DNA from: a virus
DNA length: 20,477 nt
Direction: 5' to 3' (one strand)
Virus record (IMG/VR): IMGVR_UViG_3300031602_000054
Coordinates: 1-20,477 of that record
Shown here: in pieces, positions 1-20,262 of the stretch
Layout: every line of letters begins with the position of its first letter
Position numbering within the stretch: the first letter of the stretch is position 1
The notes under the pieces: model-generated
Seen by the model: only the letters and a program-made list of their open reading frames with translations
Databases searched by the model: none
Told to the model about the DNA's origin: nothing
Program-made: the position numbers and the translations under genes

Positions 1-559
1 TTATGTTTAATCTAAGTGCTCCAGTTGGCTGTATAGCTGTATCGGTACTACTGTAAGCTGCTGCCTCTATTGTATCATCTGCCTTTATAAAAGAAACTTT
101 TCCAGCTTTACCAAAAGGTACATATATGTTATATCTATCATTGTCTGATGCTAAAGGATTATCCTCTGCAATTAACCATGCAGGTTTAGAAACAAATTCA
201 AAAGGTATAGTTGGATTAGTACCCTCTGAAAATAGTCCATAAGCTTCAAAACCATTACCGCCTACTGTACTTGTAGCAGGTCCTTGTGCAGTACCTTCTG
301 CATTTGGTAAATTAAAAAATTGGATACTAGAACCAAAGACTATAAATTGTGGGTTTCCAAGGTTACCATCTATATCTAAGAAATCTCGTATTAATTCAGC
401 AATTTCAAACTGTACTGTTTTATTTTGTGATGCTTCTTTTATCAATGTATATTCAGTATTACCTGCTACTGTAACCACACATTTAGCTGATTCTGTGTTT
501 GCTCCTGTGCTATGAGCGGATGCGTATATAGGAGTTCTTAGTGCATAATTTAGTGCCAT
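1..559 (-). CDS. Tail-associated structural protein, partial (C-terminus beyond window edge)
   Basis: An open frame starts at ATG 559-557 and runs off the window edge; 186 residues are visible. It begins MALNYALRTPIY and contains the stretch YTLIKEASQNKTVQFEIAEL, followed by Gly/Thr/Asn-rich beta-type sequence. There is no signal peptide, membrane segment or catalytic motif. The start lies three bases after the previous gene's stop, so it belongs to the same tail operon. I have seen proteins with this look (short N-terminal strand, then a YTIIK-like strand) in marine Bacteroidetes phages, usually among tail genes, but I cannot name a family. From its place after the chaperone and completion genes I infer a tail tube, baseplate or adhesin-like role. 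That it is a real structural gene is well supported; its exact role is not. Confidence 0.7.
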   Translation of the reverse strand, partial: MALNYALRTPIYASAHSTGANTESAKCVVTVAGNTEYTLIKEASQNKTVQFEIAELIRDFLDIDGNLGNPQFIVFGSSIQFFNLPNAEGTAQGPATSTVGGNGFEAYGLFSEGTNPTIPFEFVSKPAWLIAEDNPLASDNDRYNIYVPFGKAGKVSFIKADDTIEAAAYSSTDTAIQPTGALRLNI

Positions 560-562
560 AGT

Positions 563-1108
563 TTATCTTTTTTGTGCTAATAATATTGCGTTTTCTACAT
601 CTAAAACGAAAGCTTCAAACAATTCGTCAGGTAACCTTTCTATAGCCATATCAAAAGGTTTTGAAAAAAACATTGTAGCTTTTATTCCTTTATTTTTTAT
701 GCTATTAGCTAAAATATATCCCATTGTTGCATATGTTCCAAACCTTCCCTTTTTATCTCTAGGTTGCATCTTTCTATATTTTGCCCACTTTGAAAATATA
801 CCTGTTGCATATTCTAAACCTTTTAAATTACTGCTTGGTTTATAAGAGAATGGTGTATTTTTATTTTGAATGTAATTACTTTTAACTCCCTTAACTCCTT
901 GATCTTGAAAAGCTCCATAGTCTTCCATAAAAAAGTCAACTATAAAACCATCTCCTCCATCTTCAATCGTATATTTTAAAGATTCATAAAGTTCACGTGT
1001 GTAATTATACGTTCCTTTTTTTCCTCCTTTGGTTAAATTAGTTCTTGACTGCTGAATGATGTATTTACCAAATTCATCTAATACATTTTCTGCTCCTTTA
1101 AATTCCAT
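563..1108 (-). CDS. Neck / minor tail completion protein (HK97 gp10-like size and place)
   Basis: The protein has 181 residues. I chose ATG 1108-1106 (MEFKGAENV) over the TTG six bases upstream because it overlaps the previous stop as TAATG, the coupling pattern used throughout this window. The sequence is soluble and basic, with a long N-terminal helix (about residues 1-22), then TYNYTRELYESLKY and a beta stretch ending FFMEDYGAFQDQGVKG. Helix-then-beta proteins of 130-180 residues that carry an acidic-aromatic 'Y/F-G-x-F-x-D-x-G' turn are typical of head-tail or tail-completion proteins of siphoviruses, where they sit beside the tail terminator as here. The assignment is from context and general pattern, not from a specific catalytic motif. 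Confidence 0.5.
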   Translation of the reverse strand: MEFKGAENVLDEFGKYIIQQSRTNLTKGGKKGTYNYTRELYESLKYTIEDGGDGFIVDFFMEDYGAFQDQGVKGVKSNYIQNKNTPFSYKPSSNLKGLEYATGIFSKWAKYRKMQPRDKKGRFGTYATMGYILANSIKNKGIKATMFFSKPFDMAIERLPDELFEAFVLDVENAILLAQKR

Positions 1109-1578
1109 TAGCAAATATATATATCGTTATAAATCATCACATCTAATGTTGCTGTCCATCCTGCTAATTGATTTTCAAATCTGTCATAAAATGGAGTTAT
1201 ATTAGGGTTACCATCTAACTGGTACATGTCTGTGTAAAGAGTTCCCATTCTCAGCCTTTGTATTAATCTATTTAAAACTGCGAGTTGTGTATTTAAAATA
1301 TTCTGTACGTCATTGTTTCCTCTAAATTCATCTACTGTTTCGTTTTTAGATTGATCAACAATATCACAAGCAATAATGCTAATATTAAATCTTAGTACTT
1401 GCTCTTCATCTACAACGCTATTTATTATAATATGACCTAAAGGGAATATATCCTGCTTGTTTAAGTTGACATCTGTAATGTCTCCAGTAGTTACTGTATT
1501 GATGTTTTGGTCTTGCAGTAACTCTGTCTTAATAGTTTCAGTTAATTGGTAAAACCCTCTTACTCCTTGATTTGCCAT
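1108..1578 (-). CDS. Probable tail terminator / tail completion protein
   Basis: The protein has 156 residues and starts at ATG 1578-1576. It has an N-terminal amphipathic helix (GFYQLTETIKTELLQDQNI), then a beta strand holding FPLGHIIINS, a second helix (LNTQLAVLNRLIQRL), and a C-terminal strand with LAGWTATLDVMIYND. This helix/strand order, with a final strand reading W-x-x-x-L-x-V-x-I, is what I expect of phage tail terminator or completion proteins that cap the tail tube. Its start overlaps the stop of the chaperone extension by one base (TAATG), and its own stop overlaps the next start in the same way, so the three are probably translated in a chain. The function is inferred from fold-like pattern and neighbours. 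Confidence 0.5.
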   Translation of the reverse strand: MANQGVRGFYQLTETIKTELLQDQNINTVTTGDITDVNLNKQDIFPLGHIIINSVVDEEQVLRFNISIIACDIVDQSKNETVDEFRGNNDVQNILNTQLAVLNRLIQRLRMGTLYTDMYQLDGNPNITPFYDRFENQLAGWTATLDVMIYNDIYIC

Positions 1579-1832
1579 TATTTAAATTTTTTCTTCATTT
1601 GTTTTGCTTCTACTTCACTTTTGTCTTTCATAAATGAGAGCATCATAAAACACTCGTGAAACTTTAATTCTGTGATATTTTCAAATCTTGTAATATCGCC
1701 TTGAGCGAGTCCGAAAATTGATTGATACCATCCCCATTTTTTTGAGAAGTTAGATACTGGGTCAAGGCTTTGCCCTCCTCCTCCACTAAAGAGCTCGTCA
1801 TAGTTTTCGATAATTCTAGTCCTAAACTCCAC
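1578..1832 (-). CDS. Tail assembly chaperone, downstream frame (GT-type extension or overlapping gene)
   Basis: This open frame is -1 relative to the preceding gene and shares 169 bases with it. The best-preserved part starts at KKWGWYQSIFGLAQGDITRF and ends with a Lys-rich tail. The K-W-G-W-Y...LA-G-D-I...C-x-x-x-L-x-F order resembles a small tail protein I know from Bacteroidetes phages. The frame has no ATG before residue 63; the only in-frame initiator upstream is GTG at 1832. It is therefore probably made by -1 frameshifting from the upstream frame, like the G and GT chaperones of lambdoid phages. The A AAA AAT heptamer at 1736-1742 leads straight into WGWYQS. Its stop overlaps the next start (TAATG). 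Separate initiation at GTG 1832 remains possible. Confidence 0.6.
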   Translation of the reverse strand: MEFRTRIIENYDELFSGGGGQSLDPVSNFSKKWGWYQSIFGLAQGDITRFENITELKFHECFMMLSFMKDKSEVEAKQMKKKFK

Positions 1833-2314
1833 AAAAAAAAAATTGAAGACATTGCCGCATCCATTGGCATGTCTAGTAATTTGTCAGATGTTTCTGGTCT
1901 GTATTTTTCAATACTATATTTGTCTTTTAACTTAACAAGAACTGGTCTGTATAATACATTCATTGCCTTTTCCATATTCTCCCAGTCACCTATGTAGGTA
2001 TCTAAGTCAATGTATTCTCCTAATGTTAAATCATCTAATTGAGGTTGAAAGCCATACTCTAAGCCATTTAATTTAAACTTAGATACTAGACTAGGTTTCT
2101 TTTCAAATAGTTCAGAGAGCATACTTATTATTTCATTAGAGTCGTTTAATTTTAAAAGCATTACATCTTGAAGTTTTACATTGCAAAATATTTCGATCAT
2201 TTTTGCGTTTAAAAACCTTTCTTCTTTTACTGTCTCCTGCAACTTCAAATATCTTTTATATTGTCTTAGTGTTATTTCTTTTAAAGATGAAGGTATTTTT
2301 ATATTCAGTTTCAT
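1664..2314 (-). CDS. Tail assembly chaperone, upstream frame (G-like)
   Basis: The protein has 216 residues and is mostly helical and soluble. The first 25 residues are basic (SSLKEITLRQYKRYLKLQE). The middle carries LDDLTLGEYIDLDTYIGDW, followed by an aromatic-basic LYRP. That 'LTLGEY-D-D-Y' element recurs in tail-region proteins of Bacteroidetes phages. Codons 191-193 (CAA AAA AAT) form a slippery stretch. Staying in frame adds 23 more residues ending ILQDLKISQN; slipping back one base would add 52 residues of the conserved downstream frame, giving about 245. It is the first gene after the terminator at 2361-2394, so the tail genes may have their own transcription start just upstream, though I see no convincing promoter there. 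A chaperone for the tape measure protein is the likely role. Confidence 0.55.
   Translation of the reverse strand: MKLNIKIPSSLKEITLRQYKRYLKLQETVKEERFLNAKMIEIFCNVKLQDVMLLKLNDSNEIISMLSELFEKKPSLVSKFKLNGLEYGFQPQLDDLTLGEYIDLDTYIGDWENMEKAMNVLYRPVLVKLKDKYSIEKYRPETSDKLLDMPMDAAMSSIFFLWSLGLELSKTMTSSLVEEEGKALTQYLTSQKNGDGINQFSDSLKAILQDLKISQN
1736..1742 (-). other. Candidate -1 ribosomal frameshift heptamer A AAA AAT
   Basis: On the minus strand, codons 191-193 of the upstream chaperone frame read CAA AAA AAT, with seven consecutive A. Slipping from A-AAA-AAT to AAA-AAA-T moves the ribosome into the frame that reads TGG GGA TGG TAT (WGWY), where protein-like sequence continues for 52 residues. X-XXY-YYZ heptamers of this kind direct G/GT frameshifting in many long-tailed phages. 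I saw no clear stem-loop immediately downstream, so efficiency cannot be judged. Confidence 0.5.
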
Positions 2315-2360
2315 ATGTATATAACGTATTTTTTTAGTTTATTTAGAATAGTAAAAGTAA

Positions 2361-2394
2361 TAAAAAAAAAGGCAGCCATTTCTAGCTACCCTTT
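2361..2394 (-). terminator. Rho-independent terminator after the microprotein cluster
   Basis: Read on the minus strand, 2394-2385 (AAAGGGTAGC) pairs with 2376-2367 (GCTGCCTTTT). This is a ten-pair stem with two G-U pairs and an eight-base loop, followed by a run of T to about 2362. It lies between the zinc-binding microprotein gene (stop at 2420) and the tail chaperone start (2314), and separates packaging and microprotein genes from the tail genes. Confidence 0.75.
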
Positions 2395-2419
2395 AGATGT
2401 AAGTTTTCCCAAGTTATTC

Positions 2420-2545
2420 CTACATCATATCTGCTTCGTAACAACTGTTACTGCAATAACCTTTATCGTTATGCATTGGCTTTTCACAATGAGAACAAGA
2501 ATACTCAGGTTGCTCATGTGGATTTAAATAGTCATCCCAACTCAT
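2420..2545 (-). CDS. Zinc-ribbon microprotein
   Basis: The protein has 41 residues and starts MSWDDYLNPHEQPEYSCSHC. Two Cys pairs (C-S-H-C at 17-20 and C-S-N-S-C at 31-35), with His 25 between, make a small zinc-finger or zinc-ribbon knuckle. The frame is open back to a TTG at 2611, but I prefer ATG 2545-2543 because it overlaps the stop of the upstream membrane microprotein as ATGA and starts a sensible soluble protein. The gene is the last before a strong terminator. Its role is unknown; very small zinc proteins in phages often bind nucleic acid or host protein, but nothing here shows which. Confidence 0.6.
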   Translation of the reverse strand: MSWDDYLNPHEQPEYSCSHCEKPMHNDKGYCSNSCYEADMM

Positions 2546-2646
2546 ATCTGTATAGATAAAAGTAAACATACTACTAAGGCTATTGTATAAAAACAAATTA
2601 GCCACTTCCAATTATTTGGGTCTTTCTTTAAAAATTCTTTTATCAT
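2542..2646 (-). CDS. Small single-pass membrane protein
   Basis: The protein has 34 residues. A basic N-terminus (MIKEFLKKDPNNW) is followed by a hydrophobic stretch of about 19 residues (WLICFYTIALVVCLLLSIQI) that can span a membrane once, probably with the positively charged N-terminus inside. The start is two bases after the stop of the upstream gene, and its TGA stop overlaps the ATG of the next gene. This tight packing supports it as a real gene despite its size. Function is unknown. Confidence 0.5.
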   Translation of the reverse strand: MIKEFLKKDPNNWKWLICFYTIALVVCLLLSIQI

Positions 2647-2648
2647 AA

Positions 2649-2834
2649 TTAGTTTTTTATTAAGATTAAATCCAATTCATCAGCTACATAGTTTATGTGC
2701 TTTTGTGTTGTTTGACTCCAATAGCCTAATTGTAGTAAATCATTGCCTTCTATTTTAGCTACTATTGTAGAGTAACTCCATACATTGTTTCCTTGTATGT
2801 GTAAGTTTTGTTTGTATTTATCAAGTGTTCTCAT
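2649..2834 (-). CDS. Conserved small phage protein, unknown function
   Basis: The protein has 61 residues and starts at ATG 2834. Its core reads NVWSYSTIVAKIEGNDLLQL, then GYWSQTTQKHINYVADEL. I recognise the pattern 'S-Y-x-T-x-V-A-x-I ... L-G-Y-W-S-x-T-T-x-K-H-I-N-Y-V-A' from small proteins scattered through phage genomes, but no function has been given to it that I know of. It is soluble, with a predicted beta hairpin before a C-terminal helix. It lies in a run of four microproteins between terminase and tail genes. Confidence 0.65.
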   Translation of the reverse strand: MRTLDKYKQNLHIQGNNVWSYSTIVAKIEGNDLLQLGYWSQTTQKHINYVADELDLILIKN

Positions 2835-2853
2835 TGTTATGTTTTTTAAATTA

Positions 2854-2982
2854 TTAATTAATTACTTCATACTTCCATCTATTGTCTAGTATTTTTTTAA
2901 CATACCAGTCATGAAATCCTCTGGTTTTACCTAATAATATTTTACCTATGGTTGAATCTTTACTTACTTTTAATCTTAACAT
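2854..2982 (-). CDS. Basic microprotein of unknown function
   Basis: The protein has 42 residues, MLRLKVSKDSTIGKILLGKT to the end, and is rich in Lys and Arg with aromatic residues (FHDWYVKK, NRWKYEV). There is no membrane segment. It fills an otherwise empty stretch between the terminase stop (3069) and the next gene (2834), with an ATG start and no competing ORF on either strand. I do not recognise it. The basic, aromatic make-up would suit nucleic-acid or protein binding, but that is a guess. Confidence 0.45.
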   Translation of the reverse strand: MLRLKVSKDSTIGKILLGKTRGFHDWYVKKILDNRWKYEVIN

Positions 2983-3036
2983 CTTTTCTGTTTATATACT
3001 ACCTTAATTAGTAATATACTTCAATATACAACTATT

Positions 3037-3066
3037 TAAGTTATTAACCTAATTGTTATTAACTTA
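3037..3066. repeat. Short direct and inverted repeats in the terminase downstream gap
   Basis: The 9-mer GTTATTAAC occurs at 3040-3048 and again at 3055-3063, a 15-base period. The same block is bounded by TAAGTTA (3037-3043) and TAACTTA (3060-3066), a 7-bp inverted repeat. It lies just after the large-terminase stop. It could be a binding site or a weak hairpin; no T run follows. Confidence 0.4.
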
Positions 3067-3068
3067 TT

Positions 3069-4241
3069 TTAGTTTAGAGTATATTTTCCAAAGTTTGGTC
3101 TTGACAGTATAGAATACGTTGCATATCTACATGGGTCAATAATGTGGTTGTGTTTATCTTCAGGAACATTTGTAAGCATACCTGCTTTGTCTTCCCTCCA
3201 CTTATAGTTTCTAAATTCAGATATAGCATTAGTTGATGAAGATAATATGTGTATTTTATATCTCTTCAATAAATCAATCCCTGCATTAATAGAATCTTTT
3301 CCTTTAATGCTAGGGAATATATTATGCCCCATTCGCCTTAGTTCAGCGATTAGTCGAGGTTCTGCACTATCAGCGTATATAGGATTGGATAGTAATTTTT
3401 CTTCCTTTAGGAATATGTCAATATCTCTAGTAGTCATTTGTGTTCTATATAAGTGTTCTTTTATATACAAGTCATGTCCAATAGAATAAACAGAAACCAA
3501 AGTGGTTGGGTCATTAGAGTAACCGAAATCCATTCCGTATGCTATTAAGTTTGCATCTACAGGCATTTGTTGTACCTCTGTATAATTAAATATAGTGCTT
3601 TTACTAGCTGCTCTTTCTCCTAGTCCATAAACCCTCCAGTATTGCTCATCTGTATCTTTTAGTCTCTCTATCTCTTTTATTATAGAATCTTCAACAAATG
3701 GATTGTCTAGATATGTAGTCTTAAAAAATGCGCAATCTTCTCTTGGTATTACTTTATCATATATCCAATGGTATTCGTCTGATGGATTAAAGTCTAGAAT
3801 TATACTTTCTTGAGTTCTAAATATTAATTGTTGCCAGTCTTCAAAATATAACTCATTTGCTTCATTGATGAATAGTAAGTCTCTTTTTCGCCCTCTAATC
3901 TTCTGTGGTTGGTCTAGTGATATAAACTCAATTAAGTTTCCGTATAGGTTATATTCAGAGTTAGACTTATTATGAAACCTTTCACTATATATGTTATGAC
4001 TTTGTAAGATACCCATAAAGTCACGCAATACTGTTGCACGTAAACTAGGAAAAGTCTTTCGACAAATGGTTACAATCTTATTACGGTTATGAGTACAATA
4101 ATGAAATATAATCCATAGAATGATATTGTATGTTTTTCCAGACCTTGTACCACCCTGTTCAACTAAAATCTTCTTTTGATTATCTAATAAATGCTCATAG
4201 ACTACGTTAGTCTTTATCTTTAGTTCTCCCAATGATTTCAA
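3069..4241 (-). CDS. terL: Terminase large subunit (packaging ATPase and nuclease)
   Basis: The protein has 390 residues, the usual length for this group. The N-terminal ATPase carries Walker A GGTRSGKT (30-37), Walker B LLFINE (122-127) and a coupling motif ILDFNPS (148-154). The RNase H-fold nuclease has acidic residues in MDFG (Asp 238), YADSAEP (Asp 291) and HIIDP (Asp 369), the three expected for metal-dependent headful or site-specific cutting. The enzyme pumps phage DNA into the prohead at the portal and cuts it. The first 35 bases overlap the small-subunit gene. Unusually, the next genes are microproteins and a tail chaperone; portal and major capsid genes do not follow directly. Confidence 0.95.
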   Translation of the reverse strand: MKSLGELKIKTNVVYEHLLDNQKKILVEQGGTRSGKTYNIILWIIFHYCTHNRNKIVTICRKTFPSLRATVLRDFMGILQSHNIYSERFHNKSNSEYNLYGNLIEFISLDQPQKIRGRKRDLLFINEANELYFEDWQQLIFRTQESIILDFNPSDEYHWIYDKVIPREDCAFFKTTYLDNPFVEDSIIKEIERLKDTDEQYWRVYGLGERAASKSTIFNYTEVQQMPVDANLIAYGMDFGYSNDPTTLVSVYSIGHDLYIKEHLYRTQMTTRDIDIFLKEEKLLSNPIYADSAEPRLIAELRRMGHNIFPSIKGKDSINAGIDLLKRYKIHILSSSTNAISEFRNYKWREDKAGMLTNVPEDKHNHIIDPCRYATYSILSRPNFGKYTLN

Positions 4242-4563
4242 TTTGAAAGTTAGTAGGCATCCCTTCTGCTCCAGTTATTTCTTGTCTCTCTACGTATCCC
4301 CTATTTTTTCCTTTAGTCTTTAAATAGAATATAGTAGCACTTGTGTTTCCATCTCCAATTTGTTTGTGTAATTGTGATTCAGCAAAATCTAATGCTACGT
4401 TCTGTATGTCATCTACTTTTGTTCTAAATTCATTATCATCATTTAACCAATTGTAAAATTGTGTTCTTCCTATTCCTACTTTTTTGCAGGATGTAGTAAC
4501 AACTCCTAAAGATTTCTCTAGTGCTTCTAATATTGCCTTTTTATGCTGTTCAGTTTTGTTCAT
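4207..4563 (-). CDS. terS: Terminase small subunit (HTH DNA-recognition protein)
   Basis: The protein has 118 residues. The N-terminal part (about 7-40) is a helix-turn-helix of homeodomain type: KKAILEALEKSLGVVTTSCK, then VGIGRTQFYNWLNDD. It is followed by a helical oligomerisation stretch and FYLKTKGKNRGYVER, an ending seen in small terminases that use a 'K-T-K-x-R-G-Y/W' strand. Small terminases form rings that recognise packaging sites and hand DNA to the large subunit. The gene sits directly upstream of terL with a 35-base overlap, the classic arrangement. The call rests on fold-like pattern plus neighbour. Confidence 0.8.
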   Translation of the reverse strand: MNKTEQHKKAILEALEKSLGVVTTSCKKVGIGRTQFYNWLNDDNEFRTKVDDIQNVALDFAESQLHKQIGDGNTSATIFYLKTKGKNRGYVERQEITGAEGMPTNFQIEIIGRTKDKD

Positions 4564-4564
4564 A

Positions 4565-5305
4565 TTAAATGCCTTTTATTGGTGTTTTTATTATAGGATT
4601 AAAGTCAAAGTTTTTCTTCTTCTTGCCTCTCTGTGTTGTGTCTATCTTGATAATCTTGCTACCCCATTTTTTCTGCAATAAGGCTAACTGTTCTTTTTCT
4701 CTTGCCATAGTTCTCATATCAGCACAACCCCCTAAGTTTCCGTGGTCTTTCTTGATCATAAAAGTATGATTGAATCTTAATAGTTTTCTGTAGATATTTA
4801 AATTTTGTATTGAGTAATCGTAATCTTCTTTTAATGGTATTCGTTCATCAAATCTAAGTGGGTTATTTATAAACCCCATAAATGATCCGCTTATAGGATT
4901 AGTTAAACTAAAGGGCGAGTACTCTCTATAACTTCCTTTGTCTCCTATTATATTTAAACCCCATAATTTAGCACCAAACTCTTCGCAATGCCAAAAGCCA
5001 AATTCGATAAATTCTAATATATCAGCATTAACAATTTTTGGTTTACCATCTTCAATCGTCCATCTTTTAAAACCCTCTATGTCATCGTCAATAATAATTC
5101 CTTTTTCTTTTATAACATTGTCAAGCATCCAATTTCTAACTCGTGAGATGTTACCTTGTACTTGATCAGGCATTGTAACTACATTGTAACCTTTTTTAAG
5201 GTACTTTTCTGACTCAAACTCTGCTACGCAATATATTACGTTAGGAATTATTTTATGTGTCTTTACACCGTCACTTCTTTTATAACTTGGCGAATATACT
5301 TGCAT
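4565..5305 (-). CDS. GT-A glycosyltransferase, TET/JBP-associated (TAGT)-like, copy 2
   Basis: The protein has 246 residues. It starts MQVYSPSYKRSDGVKT, a nucleotide-sugar binding strand and loop. An IIDDD motif (71-75) supplies the DxD-type metal site of GT-A enzymes. YREYSPFSL (126-134), then RFDERIPLKEDYDY (151-164), RKLLRFN and KKDHGNLGGC (185-194) follow. This order of motifs matches my memory of the TAGT family, which Iyer and colleagues predicted to glycosylate modified bases in phage DNA. The gene is a paralogue of the one directly upstream and lies in a ParB-GT-GT-terminase run, consistent with DNA decoration before packaging. A glycosyltransferase acting on protein or envelope sugars cannot be ruled out. 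Confidence 0.65.
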   Translation of the reverse strand: MQVYSPSYKRSDGVKTHKIIPNVIYCVAEFESEKYLKKGYNVVTMPDQVQGNISRVRNWMLDNVIKEKGIIIDDDIEGFKRWTIEDGKPKIVNADILEFIEFGFWHCEEFGAKLWGLNIIGDKGSYREYSPFSLTNPISGSFMGFINNPLRFDERIPLKEDYDYSIQNLNIYRKLLRFNHTFMIKKDHGNLGGCADMRTMAREKEQLALLQKKWGSKIIKIDTTQRGKKKKNFDFNPIIKTPIKGI

Positions 5306-5320
5306 ATGATTTTAATGTTT

Positions 5321-6037
5321 TTAAGCTCCTATAATTGGAGTTTTAAATCTGAAACGTCCCTTGTCCCAAACCATGATTTGTTTTCCCCATTTATTGTTAA
5401 GCATAGTAGCATAGACTCTAGCATCATTTCTTGAATATCCAATGACAGAATCTTTGCCACCATCGTCTCCGTAGAATACCATTGCGTATTGATTGTCTTT
5501 TAAAAGCTTTCTATTTAGATTTAATTTCTGTACCCAAAATTCAACGTCTTCGTTTATTTTAAATCTTTCATCGTATTTTAATCCATCATGAGCATTTACC
5601 AACGTACAGCCAAAGATAATCTTAGTAAAAGAAAATGGTGACATATCTTTTAGCTTCATATTATCAAGTGAGTAATCAAAACCTGCATAATTAATACCCA
5701 TGTCACTAGCCATTATTTGTACTTTTTCTAACAGCTCTAACGCTTCTTCAGATTTTAAGTCAAGGTTTTCTTTTTTTCTTTTAATATTAACTAAGTCGTC
5801 ATCTATAATCCAACCGTAGCCATCTTCTTGTTCTTTAGTAATTAAATCTAAGATAGCGTTTCTTTTTTTTGATACAGTTCCATCCCTTTCGTCTGGTATA
5901 CTATATACTGCATTTCCGTACCTTTTTTTATAAGCTACTTCCTGAGATTTAGGAACTATTATTTTTCCGTAACCTAAATATTCATAAGTCTTTACAGAGT
6001 CAGCACGATTGTATGATGGTATATATATATTATTCAT
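5321..6037 (-). CDS. GT-A glycosyltransferase, TAGT-like, copy 1 (divergent)
   Basis: The protein has 238 residues and is a paralogue of the next gene. Matching elements are IYIPSYNRADSVKT (4-17), IPDERDGTVSKKRN (47-60), WIIDDD (76-81), MSPFSFT (132-138) and KYDERFKINEDVEFW (154-168), then LNRKLL. The distal motif differs: where copy 2 has DHGNLGGC, this copy reads FYGDDGGKDSVIGYSR, and the KEDYD element is NEDVE. The metal-binding DDD is intact, so it is probably an active transferase with another acceptor or sugar. Its start overlaps the ParB-like stop by eight bases. Two unlike copies in tandem suggest sequential additions or two different substrates. Confidence 0.6.
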   Translation of the reverse strand: MNNIYIPSYNRADSVKTYEYLGYGKIIVPKSQEVAYKKRYGNAVYSIPDERDGTVSKKRNAILDLITKEQEDGYGWIIDDDLVNIKRKKENLDLKSEEALELLEKVQIMASDMGINYAGFDYSLDNMKLKDMSPFSFTKIIFGCTLVNAHDGLKYDERFKINEDVEFWVQKLNLNRKLLKDNQYAMVFYGDDGGKDSVIGYSRNDARVYATMLNNKWGKQIMVWDKGRFRFKTPIIGA

Positions 6038-6626
6038 CAGTTATCTTATTTAAATAATCTGCTCCATTTATTACTCTGCCAATTCCTTTGCTCCAAGGTT
6101 TTCCATTAGCTCTTTTAGAGTGAACCGATTTTAATTCAAAATGAGTTTGTGCAGAAAGCCAATCAACTTCGGAATCAAATAGTAAAACAACATAATTATG
6201 AGCTTCATCTAAGTATTCGCTAAATTCAATTTCTTGTTCTTCAACTCCTGTAAAGTCCTCAATGCTAGGTACTTCTAAACCCCACTCCTCTAGTTTCTCT
6301 AAGTCCCAAGTATTAGCCAAAACATCCCAGTCCCATTCGCCAAACCCCACATTGTCTTTAGCAATAAATTCTGCTTGTTGTTCCTTTGTTAAACCTTTTG
6401 CTCTAATAATATGAACTTCTTTAAGTCCTGCTTTTATACTAGCCTTATATCTCATATTGCCACCAAGTATCATATTGTCATCATTTATAACAATTGGTCT
6501 AATTTTAAGCATCTCTGGAAAATCTTTAATGCTTTTTACTAATTTATTAAATTTATCTCCTTTTATGATTCTTGGGTTTTCAGGGTTTTCTGTAATATTC
6601 CCTATGCTTATTTTTTCTATTTTCAT
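6030..6626 (-). CDS. ParB-like (ParB/sulfiredoxin-fold) domain protein
   Basis: The protein has 198 residues from ATG 6626 (MKIEKISIGNI). I reject an upstream TTG because the ATG sits 12 bases after the previous stop and begins the domain exactly. Residues 5-75 show the ParB N-terminal pattern: ENPENPR, LVKSIKDF, then IVINDDNMILGGNMRYKA and GLKEVHII. They are followed by AKDNVGFGEWDWDVL, a tail seen in phage ParB-like proteins that are often coupled to DNA methylases. The C-terminal third is unrecognised. In phages this domain occurs beside DNA methyltransferases and base-modification enzymes, where a CTPase, nuclease or kinase role has been proposed. Its place directly ahead of two glycosyltransferases suggests it serves the same modification pathway. 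Confidence 0.8.
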   Translation of the reverse strand: MKIEKISIGNITENPENPRIIKGDKFNKLVKSIKDFPEMLKIRPIVINDDNMILGGNMRYKASIKAGLKEVHIIRAKGLTKEQQAEFIAKDNVGFGEWDWDVLANTWDLEKLEEWGLEVPSIEDFTGVEEQEIEFSEYLDEAHNYVVLLFDSEVDWLSAQTHFELKSVHSKRANGKPWSKGIGRVINGADYLNKITDE

Positions 6627-6637
6627 AATTATATAAT

Positions 6638-7174
6638 TTATTTGTTTGTTTTCCAGTCCCAAGATTTCTTAATAATCTTCATTTGTTTTAACATCACATC
6701 AACTTTGTCTTCGTCTATATTTAAACTAAATCTAACTATTGGATGCTGAGATTTAAGCATTAGTTCTTTATGCTGTTCCTCTAATAATATGTATTTGTTT
6801 TCTAAGTAATTTATTTTATCCTCCTCATCGTATGGGATAATAGAATTAAACACAAATTTTTTCTCGATATTACAAAGCGTTGGATTATTGATCTTATAAA
6901 TAGGATACATTTTAAGCAAGTGTATTACAGTAGCATGATGCATATCTTTTTTGTTTAATTTAAAAAAGTCAACAATACCCTGTAGAGTCATGTGCATTTT
7001 CTCTCTCAACATATAAGACAGCAAACCCCTGTATTCTACATATTTTCGTTCCCTGCTATTTTTAAATATATCAATGCCTGAAAGTTTAATTATCTTATCA
7101 GCTATTGCATCAGCATATCCAGTAATAGATATTGGTCCAATAAAAGGAATGTCTGGTTCTAGTTGTTCGTTCAT
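6638..7174 (-). CDS. DnaA domain IV-like DNA-binding protein without ATPase
   Basis: The protein has 178 residues. Residues 40-92 resemble the C-terminal, origin-binding domain of DnaA: an Arg-rich entry (SRERKYVEYRGLLSYMLRE), a turn with MTLQGIVDFFKL, and a recognition helix KKDMHHATVIHLL, where DnaA has the conserved 'D-H-T-T-V-I/L-H-A' helix. The AAA+ ATPase of DnaA is absent. The C-terminal half is helical and charged (YLENKYILLEEQHKELMLKS) and may dimerise or bind a partner. It could bind DnaA-box-like sites on phage or host DNA, as an initiator or as a competitor of host DnaA. The gene lies between a winged-helix gene and the ParB-like gene. Confidence 0.6.
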   Translation of the reverse strand: MNEQLEPDIPFIGPISITGYADAIADKIIKLSGIDIFKNSRERKYVEYRGLLSYMLREKMHMTLQGIVDFFKLNKKDMHHATVIHLLKMYPIYKINNPTLCNIEKKFVFNSIIPYDEEDKINYLENKYILLEEQHKELMLKSQHPIVRFSLNIDEDKVDVMLKQMKIIKKSWDWKTNK

Positions 7175-9776: not shown

Positions 9777-10292
9777 TTATAAAAGTTTTTTAAGTTTTTC
9801 TTTAACTTTGTTATAATGAAAATAAAGAGTGTAGTAAGGAATTTTTGATTTCTTTGAAAAATCCGAAATGCGTTCTCCTCCATTTATAACCTCAAAAATC
9901 TTTCTGTCATACCAATGCATTTTGCTTAAAGCGTCCTCTATCTTTTCATAAGCTTCTAGATAATTTACATCGTTATGTGATAATAAATTTAATTTACCAA
10001 CGTACCATTCTTCTTCATTATCTATGTTCTCACTTAAATGACAAATAGTTATATTTTTGTTTTTTCTTTTAAGATCAATAAAAATAGAATTGAGCGTTTT
10101 GAAAATATAATAATAATTTATTTCGTCATTATACATGATGTCTATTTTACCCTCTTCTAATTTTAACTGTATTTTGATATACATTTCTTGAGTAATATCT
10201 TCAGCTATTCTTCTAGTGCACCCAAACGTACAGACAATGTCTATCCAAGTTTCGTGCTTTTTAGCTATTAAAATAATTTTATCGTGAACCAT
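9777..10292 (-). CDS. Sigma-70 family (ECF-like) sigma factor
   Basis: The protein has 171 residues, the usual ECF length. Residues 25-45 (CTRRIAEDITQEMYIKIQLK) hold the region 2 signature 'A-E-D-I-x-Q-E-x-Y/F', which binds core polymerase and reads the -10 element. Residues about 128-170 form region 4: LSKMHWYDRKIFEV, GGERISDFSKKSKIPYYTLY and YNKVKEKLKKLL, a helix-turn-helix. It would redirect host RNA polymerase to phage promoters. Its start overlaps the upstream ATPase gene by 14 bases. Small sigma-like proteins in this position are common in flavobacterial phages, so it may be a middle or late gene switch. Confidence 0.75.
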   Translation of the reverse strand: MVHDKIILIAKKHETWIDIVCTFGCTRRIAEDITQEMYIKIQLKLEEGKIDIMYNDEINYYYIFKTLNSIFIDLKRKNKNITICHLSENIDNEEEWYVGKLNLLSHNDVNYLEAYEKIEDALSKMHWYDRKIFEVINGGERISDFSKKSKIPYYTLYFHYNKVKEKLKKLL

Positions 10293-11127
10293 AAGATTTT
10301 AGTGGGTCATATAAATCGTTGACAATAGTAGGTAATCCTAAATCGTTAACCTCAAAGCTAAAAGTTTCAAATGCGTAACCTCTGCTTCTTTTACATTTAA
10401 CTGTAACCCAATTTTTGTTGACAGTATTAGCTTCTAACTCGATATGAGTCTCGCATTTTTTTTCTAGAAAACTACCTAAATGACCAGTCATTTTTGCCGA
10501 GCCATAGTTTTGATGGATGACATTTATTATGTGGCAATTATATTTGGCAGACCATTCCATGAGCTTTTGCACTACTGCATTGGACTCTTCTAGGCTATTT
10601 ACATCACTCACAAGGTCGGCAATTCCATCTATAATGACAAGTGAAGGAGTATTTATTTTCTGTGATAGGTAATACTCAATAAACTCTAAGCGAGTCTTAT
10701 ACGCTATTGCACGAAGTCCAAACGTATGATAAATTTCAGGTTTTATTGTAGAATCCATATCATAAACTCGTTTAAAAACCTTTTGGCAATGCCATAGTCC
10801 TTGTTCAGTATCAAAGTGAACTAAGTGACCATTATTTCTATGTCCTTTAATTTTACCCCCATAAATATTAGAGTCGGATAAATAGACTGAAGCTAATAAG
10901 GATATAAAGAATGTCTTTTTAGTTTTAGGTGGAGCAGAAACGCAACTTAGATTCCCATATGTGCCAAGTGGAATAGGTAAAAGTAATTCTCCATTTTTAT
11001 TTTTAATTGTTTTTTCTCCAAAGGATAAAGCTACAGGTGGGTATTCTATTATTTCTTTTGTATTTACATAGCAATCTTCCTGAATAAATCGCATAAGCAT
11101 ATTATGCTCTGTTTGTTTTTCTGTCAT
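10279..11127 (-). CDS. RecA-fold ATPase, RepA/DnaB-like helicase or AAA_25 type
   Basis: The protein has 282 residues. The P-loop reads SAPPKTKKTFF (64-74): the Lys-Thr that grip phosphate are present, but the usual Gly residues are replaced, a variant I associate with this phage/plasmid helicase group. HFDTEQG (104-110) supplies a catalytic Glu, LVIIDGIADL (163-172) is Walker B, and NVIHQNYGSAKMTGHLGSF (202-220) resembles the sensor and Gly-rich loop of RepA-type hexameric helicases. It probably unwinds DNA at the phage fork, or loads or remodels a recombinase. It lies just past a strong terminator, so it may rely on read-through or on a promoter I cannot see. Confidence 0.75.
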   Translation of the reverse strand: MTEKQTEHNMLMRFIQEDCYVNTKEIIEYPPVALSFGEKTIKNKNGELLLPIPLGTYGNLSCVSAPPKTKKTFFISLLASVYLSDSNIYGGKIKGHRNNGHLVHFDTEQGLWHCQKVFKRVYDMDSTIKPEIYHTFGLRAIAYKTRLEFIEYYLSQKINTPSLVIIDGIADLVSDVNSLEESNAVVQKLMEWSAKYNCHIINVIHQNYGSAKMTGHLGSFLEKKCETHIELEANTVNKNWVTVKCKRSRGYAFETFSFEVNDLGLPTIVNDLYDPLKSYGSR

Positions 11128-15345: not shown

Positions 15346-18300
15346 TTATTTAGCCTTTAAAAGTTCAATTTCTGCTTTTAATTCTTGTATTGCTTTTAAT
15401 AAGACAGGTATTGTTTCTGTATATTTCATTGATAATATACCCTTCTTATCTTTACTTACTATTGCATTAAAATCTTTTTCCCAGTCTTGAGCGATAAAAC
15501 CTATTTTTTTATCTTTATCATTTTTAAAGTTATATTCAACACATCTATAATCTTTTATTTTATCTAAAACATTATTTAAAGGTTTAATATTTTCTTTTAA
15601 AATTTCGTCTGAAGCCGAAGTCCAAGCCGTTGCATTAGGGGTTAATCTAACCCCATTAGATTTAGACATAATTCGGATATTTCTACCATTTGAATTTTGT
15701 TGAATTGTAAACTCACTGGTATCCATAAACTGTGCTACTGTATATCCATTGCCTTCAATTCTAAATTGTGCAGTTGCAAAACCTCTATCATTAGCGTCAC
15801 TAACAAATAATTTAGCATTTTGTTCAACATTCGTACCTATTAAAACATTTCCGGCTGGTGTTATACGCAATCTAACATTAGCCGCAGAATTTGTTGCTCC
15901 TTTTATTATACAAAAATCCCCTGCTGAAACAGTATCTGTACTTAAAGAAAAAGCTTCACTACCAGATTCGCCTGTTCCTAGAGTTAATTGAGGGGTGCTT
16001 GATACTCCTGCTTCTCTAAAAACTTCTAATCTAGCACGAGGAGTTATTGTGTTTATTCCTGTATTTCTATCATTATCAAAATACATTCTAGTAACATTCG
16101 CTGAAGCATCAAAAATTCTAAAGTCAGCACCAACATTTCCTAAATCATATTGTCTCCCACCACTTGCAGGTAAAAAAGAAATTTTAGCATTAGCACTTCC
16201 AGTTTTTCCTTTTATTAAAACTCCTGTATCTGTTCTAACATCTAAAGTTGTACTTGGCGAATCTGTTCCGATACCAACCTTACCATCTTGTAGAATACGC
16301 ATTTTTTCAGACGCATTAGTTGCAAAAGATAAATAACCATTTTCTTTATTTTCTAAACCTACATCTACACCATTAGTAAAAACAAGAAAACCATCTGATG
16401 AACCTACACCTGACGTAGCATTAGCTAATTGAAATACTGCGTTTCCAGAAGACGCAAATACTGTTAAATTTCTTTGAGGTGCAGTTGTTCCTATACCTAC
16501 GTTTCCTCCATCAAGCACTGTTAACGACCCTGCTTCTTCTACTTGGAATATTGCATTTGTAGCAACTGCTGTTGTACTAGGAATACCTACTGAAAAAGGA
16601 CTATATCTTACACCTACTCTACCACCATCTTCAATAAAGAAAGTTTCATTGTTGTTTGAATCAAATGTTTTAAAAGAAAAAGTGCCAGTAGACGCACCAT
16701 CTCCTTTTATTTCTAGTTTAGCACTAGGTGTATTTGTTCCAATACCAAAATTGTTATTATTATCAATCCAAGAAACACCCTCTGAATGTAATCTTATTGA
16801 ATGATTTGCCCCACTATCACGGAATATGTCAAATATTGGGTCTCCTGCCCCTGTAAGTCCTACATTTCCAAGTACGGTTAAATCTCCTCCTGTTTGGCTT
16901 AATCCACCGTCTTGTTGTATAAACAAAGCAGTAGCAGTATTACTTAGGTTAGTACATTTTATTGAATCTCTACCTATAAAAAGCTTTCTAGCATCATCTT
17001 CTGTTATTATTGTAGTAACTGTTCCACTACCTGTCTGATGAATGTGAAGTTTAGCATCTGGCGACAGTTCTCCTATTCCTACTTTTCCATCTTCTTGAAT
17101 ACGCATTAATTCAATACCATCATCAGCAGTACCATTTGTTCTAAATCTATAACTAGAACCAGTACCACTATTATCGGAATCAATTTGAAAAACCATTGAA
17201 TCAGCAGTTATTAATTTACCTGCAGCAGTTCCTGTTGTTCCTAATTTTAAAGTGTCAAAAATATTAACACCTGTACTTGTAGTTTCAAATTTTTTAGAGT
17301 TGTCATAGTATAAATTTACTGCACCATTTTCATTAGCATCAATCATACTTTCCCCATTAGCACCTTGTATTCTTAAAGCACTACTAGCCCTTATAAATAA
17401 TAATCCTGTTCCTGTATCAGAAATATAACTGTCATTTCCGTCGTGATATATTTGAAGGTCTGAAGAATTTCCAAATTTGGCTATAACGTTATCAGACAAT
17501 GATACGTTTTTACTAAATTGATTTATCTCATTAAGTCCATCAATAGTAAAATACGTAGTTGTTCCACCAGAGCCATTATCCGTAGCAAATCTAATATCTT
17601 TATTATCTGCTCTATTAGTAAATGTAGCATTACCTATATCGTTAAAGAAGTTAAAATTACTACCATCGTGTTTCATAAATGCTTTTCCACCTGGACCAAA
17701 TGATATTGCTTTATTATCTAGTAAACTTATTTCTCCTGCAAACGATACGTTAGCGTTTGTGTCTATTGTCAAAGCAACACCAGTTCCATCTGAATCCGAT
17801 ATTTCTAAATTTCTACTTGCCTGTACATTTGTAAAAACCCAATTTCCTGTATTTGCCCCTAAAGTTAACGATGAATTATTACCAACTCCATTAACGGTTA
17901 ATGATTGACCTGTAGTAACATTACCACCAAAACTTCCTGTAGTAGCAACTGCTAGTGCACCATAACTCCTTAATAATCCTATAGTTTCTAACCCTTCAGA
18001 TACTCTAATAGCAGAATTTGCTGCTACTCTAGTTAATGCAATTCCATTAATATCTATACCTACATCTGTTGTAGATATAAACGATGTTGCAGATACAGTT
18101 CCTGTTGATACAAAACTAGAACTTTCTAAACCTGCTACAACCAAATCTGCTGCTTGATAACCTCCTGCTTGACTTACTACAGTTGTCGGTTCTACTGTTG
18201 TGTTTTTAAATAACTTAAATTTATTAGAATCTGATGCATCGTTATATAATCCTAAATACCTAGGAGTTCCATCATTGTATTTTCCATAGAAACCAATGTC

Positions 18301-20262
18301 TAAACTATTAGCAGCATTTGCAGTTGCTAAACTTATTAATGGATCAACTACTGAAAGTGTTTGAGAATTGACTGTTGTAGTCGTTCCATTTACTGTAAGG
18401 TCTCCTGCGATAGTTACATCGTTACCTGTAATTAAATCTCCACTTCTATTTATAATTAAAGCAGTAGTATCTAAAGGAGAGTTATTTGATGTTTTAAATA
18501 TTGTTGATTGTGTTCCTCCTGTATTATCAATAAAAGAATTAGACCCATCTGAATATATCTGTAAATTAGCTTGATTTCCAAATCTTGCTTTTCCGTTATT
18601 TGCAAAATTTATATTGTTAGCACCAACTTCTACATTACCTGTAAAAGAACCTCCGCCTGTTACTGCTATACCTGTGTTTGTAGTTGCTAATCTTACTACA
18701 TTATTAAAATAAAGTTGTACTGCATCATCTGTATCTGCCCTTAACATTTGCTCAGTACCTGCTGCATTTAATACCCTAAACGTATTTGTTTTTATTAAAA
18801 GTCCACCTGTACTATTATTTATTTCACTATTAGTACCCGAATGAAATATTTCAAGGTCAGAGCCTGTTCCATAAATAGACTTCACATTATCATTATGAAT
18901 AGTATCGCCTGTCATAGTTCCTCCAATCAATGGAAGAAAAGAACCTCCTGCGCCAGTTATCGTGCCTGTAACTTCTAGGTTTCCTGTAACCTTTGCACCA
19001 TCTGAAACTGTTTCTAGTCTTTTAGTTCCATAATGACTTAACTCAACTTTACCTGTAGAGCCATCTATTTGAATATATGTAGCAATACCACCACCGCCAT
19101 TATCACTTTGTAAAATAATATCTCGGTCTTGAAAATTATTTCTTATGTATAAATCTCCATTATCATTATCTAAATAAGAATTTGTGCTGTTATGATATAT
19201 GCTAAGGTCAGACCCTGCACCGAATATAGCTTTTCCGTTATCTACAAAAGTTGCATTTGCTCCTACTGTTACATTTGATGTAGTAGATAAAGCACCTGTT
19301 ACTGCTATACCTGTGCTTTCAGTTGATAGTTTAGTTACGTTTGCGTGTCGCATTGCTGTGTTAGCACCCTCAACAAATTGAAAACCTATTTGACCATTTA
19401 CGCTTCCTATATTGACTTGAGTAGAACCTTGTATATTAAATACCCCTGTTCCTGTATCTTTAATAAAAGAATTATTAGAATCGTGAAATATCTCAAGTCC
19501 ATCGGATGCAGTTCCGTATATGCTTTTAACATTATCGTTGTGGATAGTGTTACCAGTCATTATTCCGCCTGCTAGTGGCAAGAATGAGCCACCTGCTCCT
19601 GTAATAGTTCCTGTCACGAGTAAATCCCCAGTAACAGTACTACCTAATAAAGTGGTTTCAATTTTCTTAACACCATTAAAAAACAACTGTACTGCACCAT
19701 CTGTAAATGCTTGAATCATTGATTCTCCACCTGTCTTTTGAACTCTAAATATTGGAGTTTGAATATATAAGTTTGATAAAGTTGTAATTCTTGAATCGGC
19801 AGTATCTTGAAATATCTCAAATTCTGAACTTGTTCCAAATATTGCTTTACTAGTATCAGTAAAAGTAACATCATCCCCTGCACTTACTGCAATGTCTTTT
19901 CCACTTGTAGTGTTTCCAAATCCTAAAACCTCAGTTAAAGTATCTGTTTGTGAGAATTTGGTATCTACATACAGTTTAACTGCAGCACTTGTAGGTAGAG
20001 TAGTATCATTATTAAAGTTTTCAATACCATTAGCTGCTGTTACAAATTGTGTAATAGTAACACCAGTACCAGTATCTTTTAATGACCCCCATTCTAGTAC
20101 ACTTGTAACTTTAAAATCACCTGCTGTGTTTAATAATAGTCCTGACTGGTTTCCAGAGCCATCTGTCAGTTCTTTTAATGTAGCTGTAATTACGCCATTA
20201 TCAATGGTCTTTAAAAGACCTTCGTAGGTTTGAGATATTTTAGTGTTAAATAGAGTTGCCAT
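15346..20262 (-). CDS. Long tail fibre with C-terminal S74 chaperone domain
   Basis: The protein has 1638 residues. The N-terminal 110 residues (ending SAAVKLYVDTKFS) probably attach to the tail. Most of the body is beta-rich and repetitive: a unit of the form 'FG..SDL.I.HD..NS.I.D' appears near residues 140, 247, 344, 461, 556 and 924. Between them is LTVNGTTTTVNS, a common fibre element. The end (1545-1638) has SASDEILKENIKPL with Ser 1551 and Lys 1556 spaced as in the catalytic dyad of S74 (endosialidase-type) chaperones, which fold the trimer and then cut themselves off, and a terminal coiled coil. It recognises host surface sugars or proteins. Confidence 0.9.
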   Translation of the reverse strand: MATLFNTKISQTYEGLLKTIDNGVITATLKELTDGSGNQSGLLLNTAGDFKVTSVLEWGSLKDTGTGVTITQFVTAANGIENFNNDTTLPTSAAVKLYVDTKFSQTDTLTEVLGFGNTTSGKDIAVSAGDDVTFTDTSKAIFGTSSEFEIFQDTADSRITTLSNLYIQTPIFRVQKTGGESMIQAFTDGAVQLFFNGVKKIETTLLGSTVTGDLLVTGTITGAGGSFLPLAGGIMTGNTIHNDNVKSIYGTASDGLEIFHDSNNSFIKDTGTGVFNIQGSTQVNIGSVNGQIGFQFVEGANTAMRHANVTKLSTESTGIAVTGALSTTSNVTVGANATFVDNGKAIFGAGSDLSIYHNSTNSYLDNDNGDLYIRNNFQDRDIILQSDNGGGGIATYIQIDGSTGKVELSHYGTKRLETVSDGAKVTGNLEVTGTITGAGGSFLPLIGGTMTGDTIHNDNVKSIYGTGSDLEIFHSGTNSEINNSTGGLLIKTNTFRVLNAAGTEQMLRADTDDAVQLYFNNVVRLATTNTGIAVTGGGSFTGNVEVGANNINFANNGKARFGNQANLQIYSDGSNSFIDNTGGTQSTIFKTSNNSPLDTTALIINRSGDLITGNDVTIAGDLTVNGTTTTVNSQTLSVVDPLISLATANAANSLDIGFYGKYNDGTPRYLGLYNDASDSNKFKLFKNTTVEPTTVVSQAGGYQAADLVVAGLESSSFVSTGTVSATSFISTTDVGIDINGIALTRVAANSAIRVSEGLETIGLLRSYGALAVATTGSFGGNVTTGQSLTVNGVGNNSSLTLGANTGNWVFTNVQASRNLEISDSDGTGVALTIDTNANVSFAGEISLLDNKAISFGPGGKAFMKHDGSNFNFFNDIGNATFTNRADNKDIRFATDNGSGGTTTYFTIDGLNEINQFSKNVSLSDNVIAKFGNSSDLQIYHDGNDSYISDTGTGLLFIRASSALRIQGANGESMIDANENGAVNLYYDNSKKFETTSTGVNIFDTLKLGTTGTAAGKLITADSMVFQIDSDNSGTGSSYRFRTNGTADDGIELMRIQEDGKVGIGELSPDAKLHIHQTGSGTVTTIITEDDARKLFIGRDSIKCTNLSNTATALFIQQDGGLSQTGGDLTVLGNVGLTGAGDPIFDIFRDSGANHSIRLHSEGVSWIDNNNNFGIGTNTPSAKLEIKGDGASTGTFSFKTFDSNNNETFFIEDGGRVGVRYSPFSVGIPSTTAVATNAIFQVEEAGSLTVLDGGNVGIGTTAPQRNLTVFASSGNAVFQLANATSGVGSSDGFLVFTNGVDVGLENKENGYLSFATNASEKMRILQDGKVGIGTDSPSTTLDVRTDTGVLIKGKTGSANAKISFLPASGGRQYDLGNVGADFRIFDASANVTRMYFDNDRNTGINTITPRARLEVFREAGVSSTPQLTLGTGESGSEAFSLSTDTVSAGDFCIIKGATNSAANVRLRITPAGNVLIGTNVEQNAKLFVSDANDRGFATAQFRIEGNGYTVAQFMDTSEFTIQQNSNGRNIRIMSKSNGVRLTPNATAWTSASDEILKENIKPLNNVLDKIKDYRCVEYNFKNDKDKKIGFIAQDWEKDFNAIVSKDKKGILSMKYTETIPVLLKAIQELKAEIELLKAK
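18870..19614 (-). repeat. Near-identical internal duplication in the tail fibre
   Basis: Residues about 217-250 and 432-465 both read TGTITGAGGSFLPL, then a GG-MTG turn and IHNDNVKSIYG, with only a few changes, 215 residues apart. The DNA is also similar but not identical. It suggests tandem growth of the fibre by duplication of a unit about 645 bases long. Confidence 0.7.

Follow-up and report, generated by a model that had tools for sequence, protein, structure and literature searches.

A recurrent phage cassette of a ParB-type adaptor protein and TAGT glycosyltransferases, a probable DNA glycosylation system

A cassette in which a ParB-type protein with a conserved C-terminal adaptor domain precedes one or two glycosyltransferases of the TAGT (TET/JBP-associated glycosyltransferase) family probably attaches sugars to the phage's own DNA, steered by the ParB-type protein. 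It was found in a linear IMG/VR virus fragment of 20,477 bases, which was analysed at its full length and is called the window here. We put the probability that it is a ParB-guided DNA glycosylation cassette acting late, after replication, at roughly 0.6. Phage DNA would be the likeliest substrate, as the enzymes are homologous to T6 ggt, the cassette exchanges with DNA methyltransferases, and a ParB is its partner. There is a real chance that the chemistry is new.

On the minus strand of the window, the ParB_N gene (6030..6626) is followed by TAGT_A (5321..6037), TAGT_B (4565..5305), and the terminase genes terS (4207..4563) and terL (3069..4241), all with overlaps or tiny gaps. The ParB gene and TAGT_A overlap by 8 nt, the two TAGT genes are 15 nt apart, TAGT_B and terS are separated by 1 nt, and terS overlaps terL. 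The preliminary description of the window had claimed a ParB-fold gene and two tandem GT-A glycosyltransferases running into terS and terL; the coordinates, overlaps, and Pfam matches confirm this order. The small subunit gene (PHROG terS matches, synteny) and the large subunit gene (Terminase_3 and Terminase_3C matches, synteny) are linked to the cassette, terS being counted outside the enzyme set. The ParB reading frame starts with ATG at 6626 and stops at 6030; a TTG at 6662 could also serve as the start and would lengthen the protein. The gene immediately before ParB in the window (6638-7174, minus strand), present in some relatives as well, weakly matches the DnaA C-terminal DNA-binding domain (25 bits, under the cut-off), has no AAA domain, and possibly encodes a phage replication-origin binder. 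A Bacteroidota host is likely for the window virus, since Flavobacterium phages make up most of the closest cultured relatives of its terL among the matches listed, with an identity of about 38%.

Both TAGT_A (238 aa) and TAGT_B (246 aa) are over the curated Pfam cut-off of 27.5 bits for PF20691, the TAGT family, with 61.3 and 39.6 bits, respectively, and both match PHROG 842, beta-glucosyl-HMC-alpha-glucosyltransferase. A genome search of T6 with the PF20691 profile gives 39.4 bits, about equal to TAGT_B, and a profile built from ParB-linked TAGTs alone scores T6 ggt at 49.8 bits and a Microbacterium protein at 84 bits. The family membership claimed earlier is thus upheld, and the profile matches (PF20691, PHROG 842, and T6 ggt via the family profile) are not confined to capsule or protein glycosyltransferases. 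The SPSY/IPSY, DDD, SPFS, and DER elements named in the same description are all present in the translations. The DDD metal/donor motif, at 5795..5803 in TAGT_A and 5081..5089 in TAGT_B (both minus strand), is invariant across 32 diverse TAGT homologues (alignment A4), and likewise in the alignments of TAGT_B (A1) and TAGT_A (A2).

The predicted structure of TAGT_B has a GT-A fold (pLDDT 86.7, pTM 0.85); rows from the phage collection were left out of the alignments used for structure prediction. Its nearest PDB folds in Foldseek are the GT2/GT-A enzymes AvpGT (the top match), WrtF, and TarP, with RmlT also among them, and a sequence search of the PDB gave no match. AvpGT is reported to be a nucleoside 3'-O-glucosyltransferase of family GT2 (PMC11959488). 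As a guide to the TAGT acceptor it was rejected as too weak, since with a TM score of about 0.5 and 14% identity its function is not transferable. TAGT_A, likewise of GT-A type, shares 31% identity with TAGT_B. Because TAGT_B groups with single TAGTs in the tree and TAGT_A falls in one separate clade (rooting and long branches are unsure), we read TAGT_A as a putative additional copy, in the same slot that inserted methyltransferases occupy elsewhere. Both enzymes are under strong purifying selection, with dN/dS of 0.02-0.07 against the two closest relatives compared (L004 and L008).

The ParB protein (198 aa) consists of two halves of different character. The ParB_N domain (residues ~1-115, 6282..6626, minus strand) matches its Pfam family with 27.6 bits (cut-off 26.3), the predicted model matches ParB CTPases in structure comparison, and the alignment of this putatively NTP-binding domain contains a P-motif-like GGNMR. 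This half is variable, and several ParB_N types occur among adaptor-bearing relatives. The adaptor, a C-terminal domain of about 65 residues (residues ~132-198, 6033..6233, minus strand) with the pattern NYVVLxFDNDxDWLSAQTHF...GKPWSKGIGRVxNGAxYL, is markedly more conserved, with a mean column conservation of 0.58 versus 0.34 for ParB_N. It matches no Pfam family, and its portion of the structure model is of low confidence. One relative has a second ParB_N gene, this one without an adaptor, shortly downstream of the TAGT (L050:3919-4518).

The linkage of the two components was seen from both sides. Queries with TAGT_A, TAGT_B, and alignments returned about 100 relatives, and a ParB gene lies immediately upstream in nearly all of those whose contig reaches that far. 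Two scans with the C-terminal adaptor alone (best 80 loci each), together with the earlier loci, gave 130 distinct adaptor-bearing ParB proteins. Among these listed matches, many of which came from the adaptor-only queries, a TAGT follows just downstream in 130 of 130: as a single gene in 78, in tandem in 40, and beyond an inserted gene or an open gap in 12. The adaptor is found only upstream of a TAGT among the matches listed, where rarer partners may be missed. The ParB-TAGT junction is mostly an overlap of 4-8 nt, and the terminase genes are usually next. This unbroken recurrence of the gene pair and the low dN/dS place the cassette far beyond chance.

Genes between the adaptor-ParB and the TAGT are mostly SAM methyltransferases, with one of FkbM type and one radical-SAM/SPASM enzyme. 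The position held by TAGT_A in the window is taken in some relatives by a methyltransferase or radical-SAM gene. The radical-SAM/SPASM enzyme (L160:6194-7072) may be a sign of unusual chemistry on the sugar or base. Related proteins of about 300 aa follow the TAGT in the two contigs with FkbM or radical-SAM inserts (L162:7620-8534 and L160:7817-8719); the former has no Pfam match.

Carriers include contigs labelled Lentisphaerae, Acidobacteria, Spirochaetia, and Phascolarctobacterium, as well as the Streptococcus prophage Javan291, from Streptococcus marmotae HTS5, and Microbacterium phages. The Microbacterium TAGT is carried by 56 phage records, Paschalis among them, and strains of M. foliorum or M. 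paraoxydans were the isolation hosts of most of these carriers. In the phage collection, TAGT_A gave no match and TAGT_B matched Javan291 only. Among about 400 genomes of the phylum of one carrier, G028, a TAGT occurs only in G028 itself, and a search of plasmids found none. In the Microbacterium phages, a UDP-glucose-dehydrogenase-like gene comes right after the TAGT (Paschalis L103:7355-8137), which hints at a uronic-acid donor.

The relationships of the ParB_N half point towards DNA methyltransferase fusions. The ParB_N of Javan291 shares 60-75% identity over about 113 residues with the ParB_N of Streptococcus and Lactococcus phage proteins in which it is fused to an N6_N4-MTase (ParB::N6_N4-MTase), and in the Streptococcus prophages Javan316 and Javan213 such a fusion lies directly before terS/terL. 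At the DNA level, Javan291 and Javan213 are 71.7% identical over 297 bases, and this similarity ends before the start of the adaptor. For a second ParB_N type, from another carrier, the best matches are likewise MTase fusions (two types were tested). The same order is seen in the Bacteroides phage BS-TP3, with ParB, ParB::MTase, terS, and terL. In carrier pairs, ParB_N is only 19-25% identical whereas the adaptor and TAGT reach 60-78%, as domain swapping would give. In the Streptococcus prophages, the adaptor and TAGT take the place of the methyltransferase in the same pre-terminase slot. A clean allelic swap between near-identical prophages was rejected: Javan291 and Javan213 have no long DNA similarity in terS/terL, and Javan11, the closest terL relative, has neither enzyme in the slot. 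The swap therefore lies between prophage families.

Several known systems resemble the cassette in part. T6 ggt is reported to attach a second glucose to the glucosyl-hmC of DNA, and a GT-A fold was reported for the T6 TAGT (PMC13216743). By profile (PF20691 and PHROG 842), ggt of T2 and T6 belongs to the same family as the window TAGTs and shares the DDD motif. However, T6 ggt adjoins the dCMP hydroxymethylase gene (gene 42) and has an alpha-GT elsewhere in the genome, whereas neither was found with the adaptor-ParB cassette, whose ParB-adaptor partner is invariable. Phage-typical fusions of the ParB-CTPase fold are those with N6_N4 MTase and Methyltransf_23, and the survey that describes them makes no mention of glycosyltransferases (PMC12704722). 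These fusions share with the cassette a homologous ParB_N and the slot before terS/terL; the cassette differs in having a novel adaptor and a separate glycosyltransferase gene in place of the methyltransferase. The ParB-like proteins DpdB and DndB are ParB-fold partners in DNA modification operons. DndB is also named in PMC12704722. Their partner enzymes differ from those of the cassette, and no TGT (DpdA) or Dnd proteins were seen at the cassette loci. Solitary TAGTs in 288 of 753 phages were called potentially novel transferases and left unexplained (PMC13216743). They have no alpha-GT or beta-GT, as would be the case here, and a large subset of solitary TAGTs is tied here to ParB-adaptor and terminase genes. 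In the open literature searched, a set that excludes Iyer et al. 2013 on TAGT/TET systems, no mention was found of the adaptor domain, the ParB-adaptor coupling, or the methyltransferase swap.

In the proposed mechanism, ParB_N, with its presumably NTP-binding ParB-CTPase fold of the kind fused to phage DNA methyltransferases, would bind or slide on phage DNA, and the C-terminal adaptor would recruit the TAGT enzymes. These would then move a sugar from a nucleotide-sugar to the phage DNA, presumably shortly before its packaging by the adjacent terminase. TAGT_B may carry out the basic transfer. TAGT_A may add a second sugar or perform a tailoring step, in the slot where others have a methyltransferase, an FkbM methyltransferase, or a radical-SAM enzyme. 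The sugar would most likely serve as a block to host nucleases. The preliminary description had proposed a candidate DNA hypermodification module. The TAGT enzymes and the coupled ParB in it are borne out, and the unit now extends to a widespread pair of adaptor-ParB and TAGT that is exchangeable with ParB::methyltransferase; DNA as its target is our inference.

The acceptor was approached through 68 carrier records, of which two are complete phages (Javan291 and Paschalis) and the rest (~65) are fragments or host genomes. The window itself has no dioxygenase or hydroxymethylase, as had been described. The cassette might still belong to an ordinary T-even or TET route, with a hydroxymethylase, a C5-MTase plus TET elsewhere, or a host enzyme preparing the base and the TAGTs merely glycosylating hmC or hmU. 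Such pathways are known to include TAGTs (PMC13216743, PMC13390438), and the window is only a 20 kb fragment. However, no thymidylate-synthase-like gene (PF00303) was matched in any phage or viral record of the 68, including the complete Javan291 and Paschalis, with positive controls detected; the only matches came from three records that are whole bacterial genomes and would be expected to carry a chromosomal thyA. Tet_JBP (PF12851) had no match in the 68 records, mostly fragments, in a search run without a positive control. None was present in the T6 region examined either, and a TET/JBP link is not required for TAGT membership. Among 23 carriers, the T4 alpha-GT (PF11440) was found in none, with T6 detected as the positive control, and a C5 cytosine methyltransferase (PF00145) in one (G450). 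In both complete phages, Pfam scans covering most of the non-structural genes gave no candidate hydroxylating enzyme of a kind that such scans detect, as novel enzymes would escape them. We regard the ordinary route as improbable. Because the complete relatives lack every recognised hydroxymethylpyrimidine route tested, the acceptor-making gene probably does not lie just outside the window, one of the two options given in the preliminary description. With no hmC- or hmU-making enzyme recognised, the known TAGT chemistry is left without its substrate, and the missing DNA-preparing enzymes mean that an undescribed kind of DNA modification, the other option, may be at work. In a tentative and more specific form, which we consider possible but hardly the expected outcome, the cassette would be a new hypermodification class in which the adaptor-ParB delivers the glycosyltransferase and the sugar is placed directly on an unmodified base or deoxyribose, without hydroxymethylation and coupled to packaging.

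The DNA reading has its counterpoints: T6 ggt acts on a sugar and not directly on the base, and both SAM methyltransferases and FkbM also occur alongside the glycosylation of proteins and surfaces. The main rival is protein glycosylation, since phages with glycosyltransferase and methyltransferase sets proposed to be capsid-directed exist: cluster O mycobacteriophages carry glycosyltransferase and O-methyltransferase sets proposed to decorate the capsid (PMC4351075). The TAGTs would then glycosylate a virion or packaging protein such as the terminase, portal, capsid, or tail, and ParB would be a scaffold or regulator. The place of the cassette beside the terminase fits this, as do the FkbM and SAM methyltransferase inserts, which suit glycan tailoring. 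However, the TAGT homology to T6 ggt and a ParB_N that is also found fused to DNA methyltransferases in that slot argue against a protein target, and we consider it unlikely, if somewhat less so than the ordinary route. Modification of host nucleic acid or a surface polymer, as in O-antigen conversion or superinfection exclusion, is very improbable. TarP, WrtF, and RmlT, whose substrates are wall teichoic acid or LPS, are among the structural neighbours. Yet the ParB partner and the late position beside the terminase speak against a host target, no flippase or membrane gene was seen in the conserved unit, and the cassette is present in phages described as lytic (PMC7302621).

If the DNA glycosylation reading holds, many solitary phage TAGTs that now lack an explanation would gain a function, glycosyltransferases would join the known partners of the ParB-CTPase fold, and a route of DNA glycosylation without a hydroxymethylpyrimidine would be indicated. 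The cassette is directly testable, because the Microbacterium phage records and one Streptococcus prophage carry it.

Other parts of the window have features of their own. The small tail-like genes that follow terL (1-3069) include no portal or capsid gene evident by eye, which is not the usual order in tailed phages. The gene at 9777-10292 (minus strand), which comes immediately after an AAA ATPase gene (10279-11127), encodes a small protein with a marginal match to a sigma-factor PHROG (E 0.011). At 15346-20262 (minus strand), a very long, repetitive tail-fibre-like protein of 1638 aa is encoded, whose C-terminus resembles, from the appearance of its sequence, an intramolecular chaperone domain.
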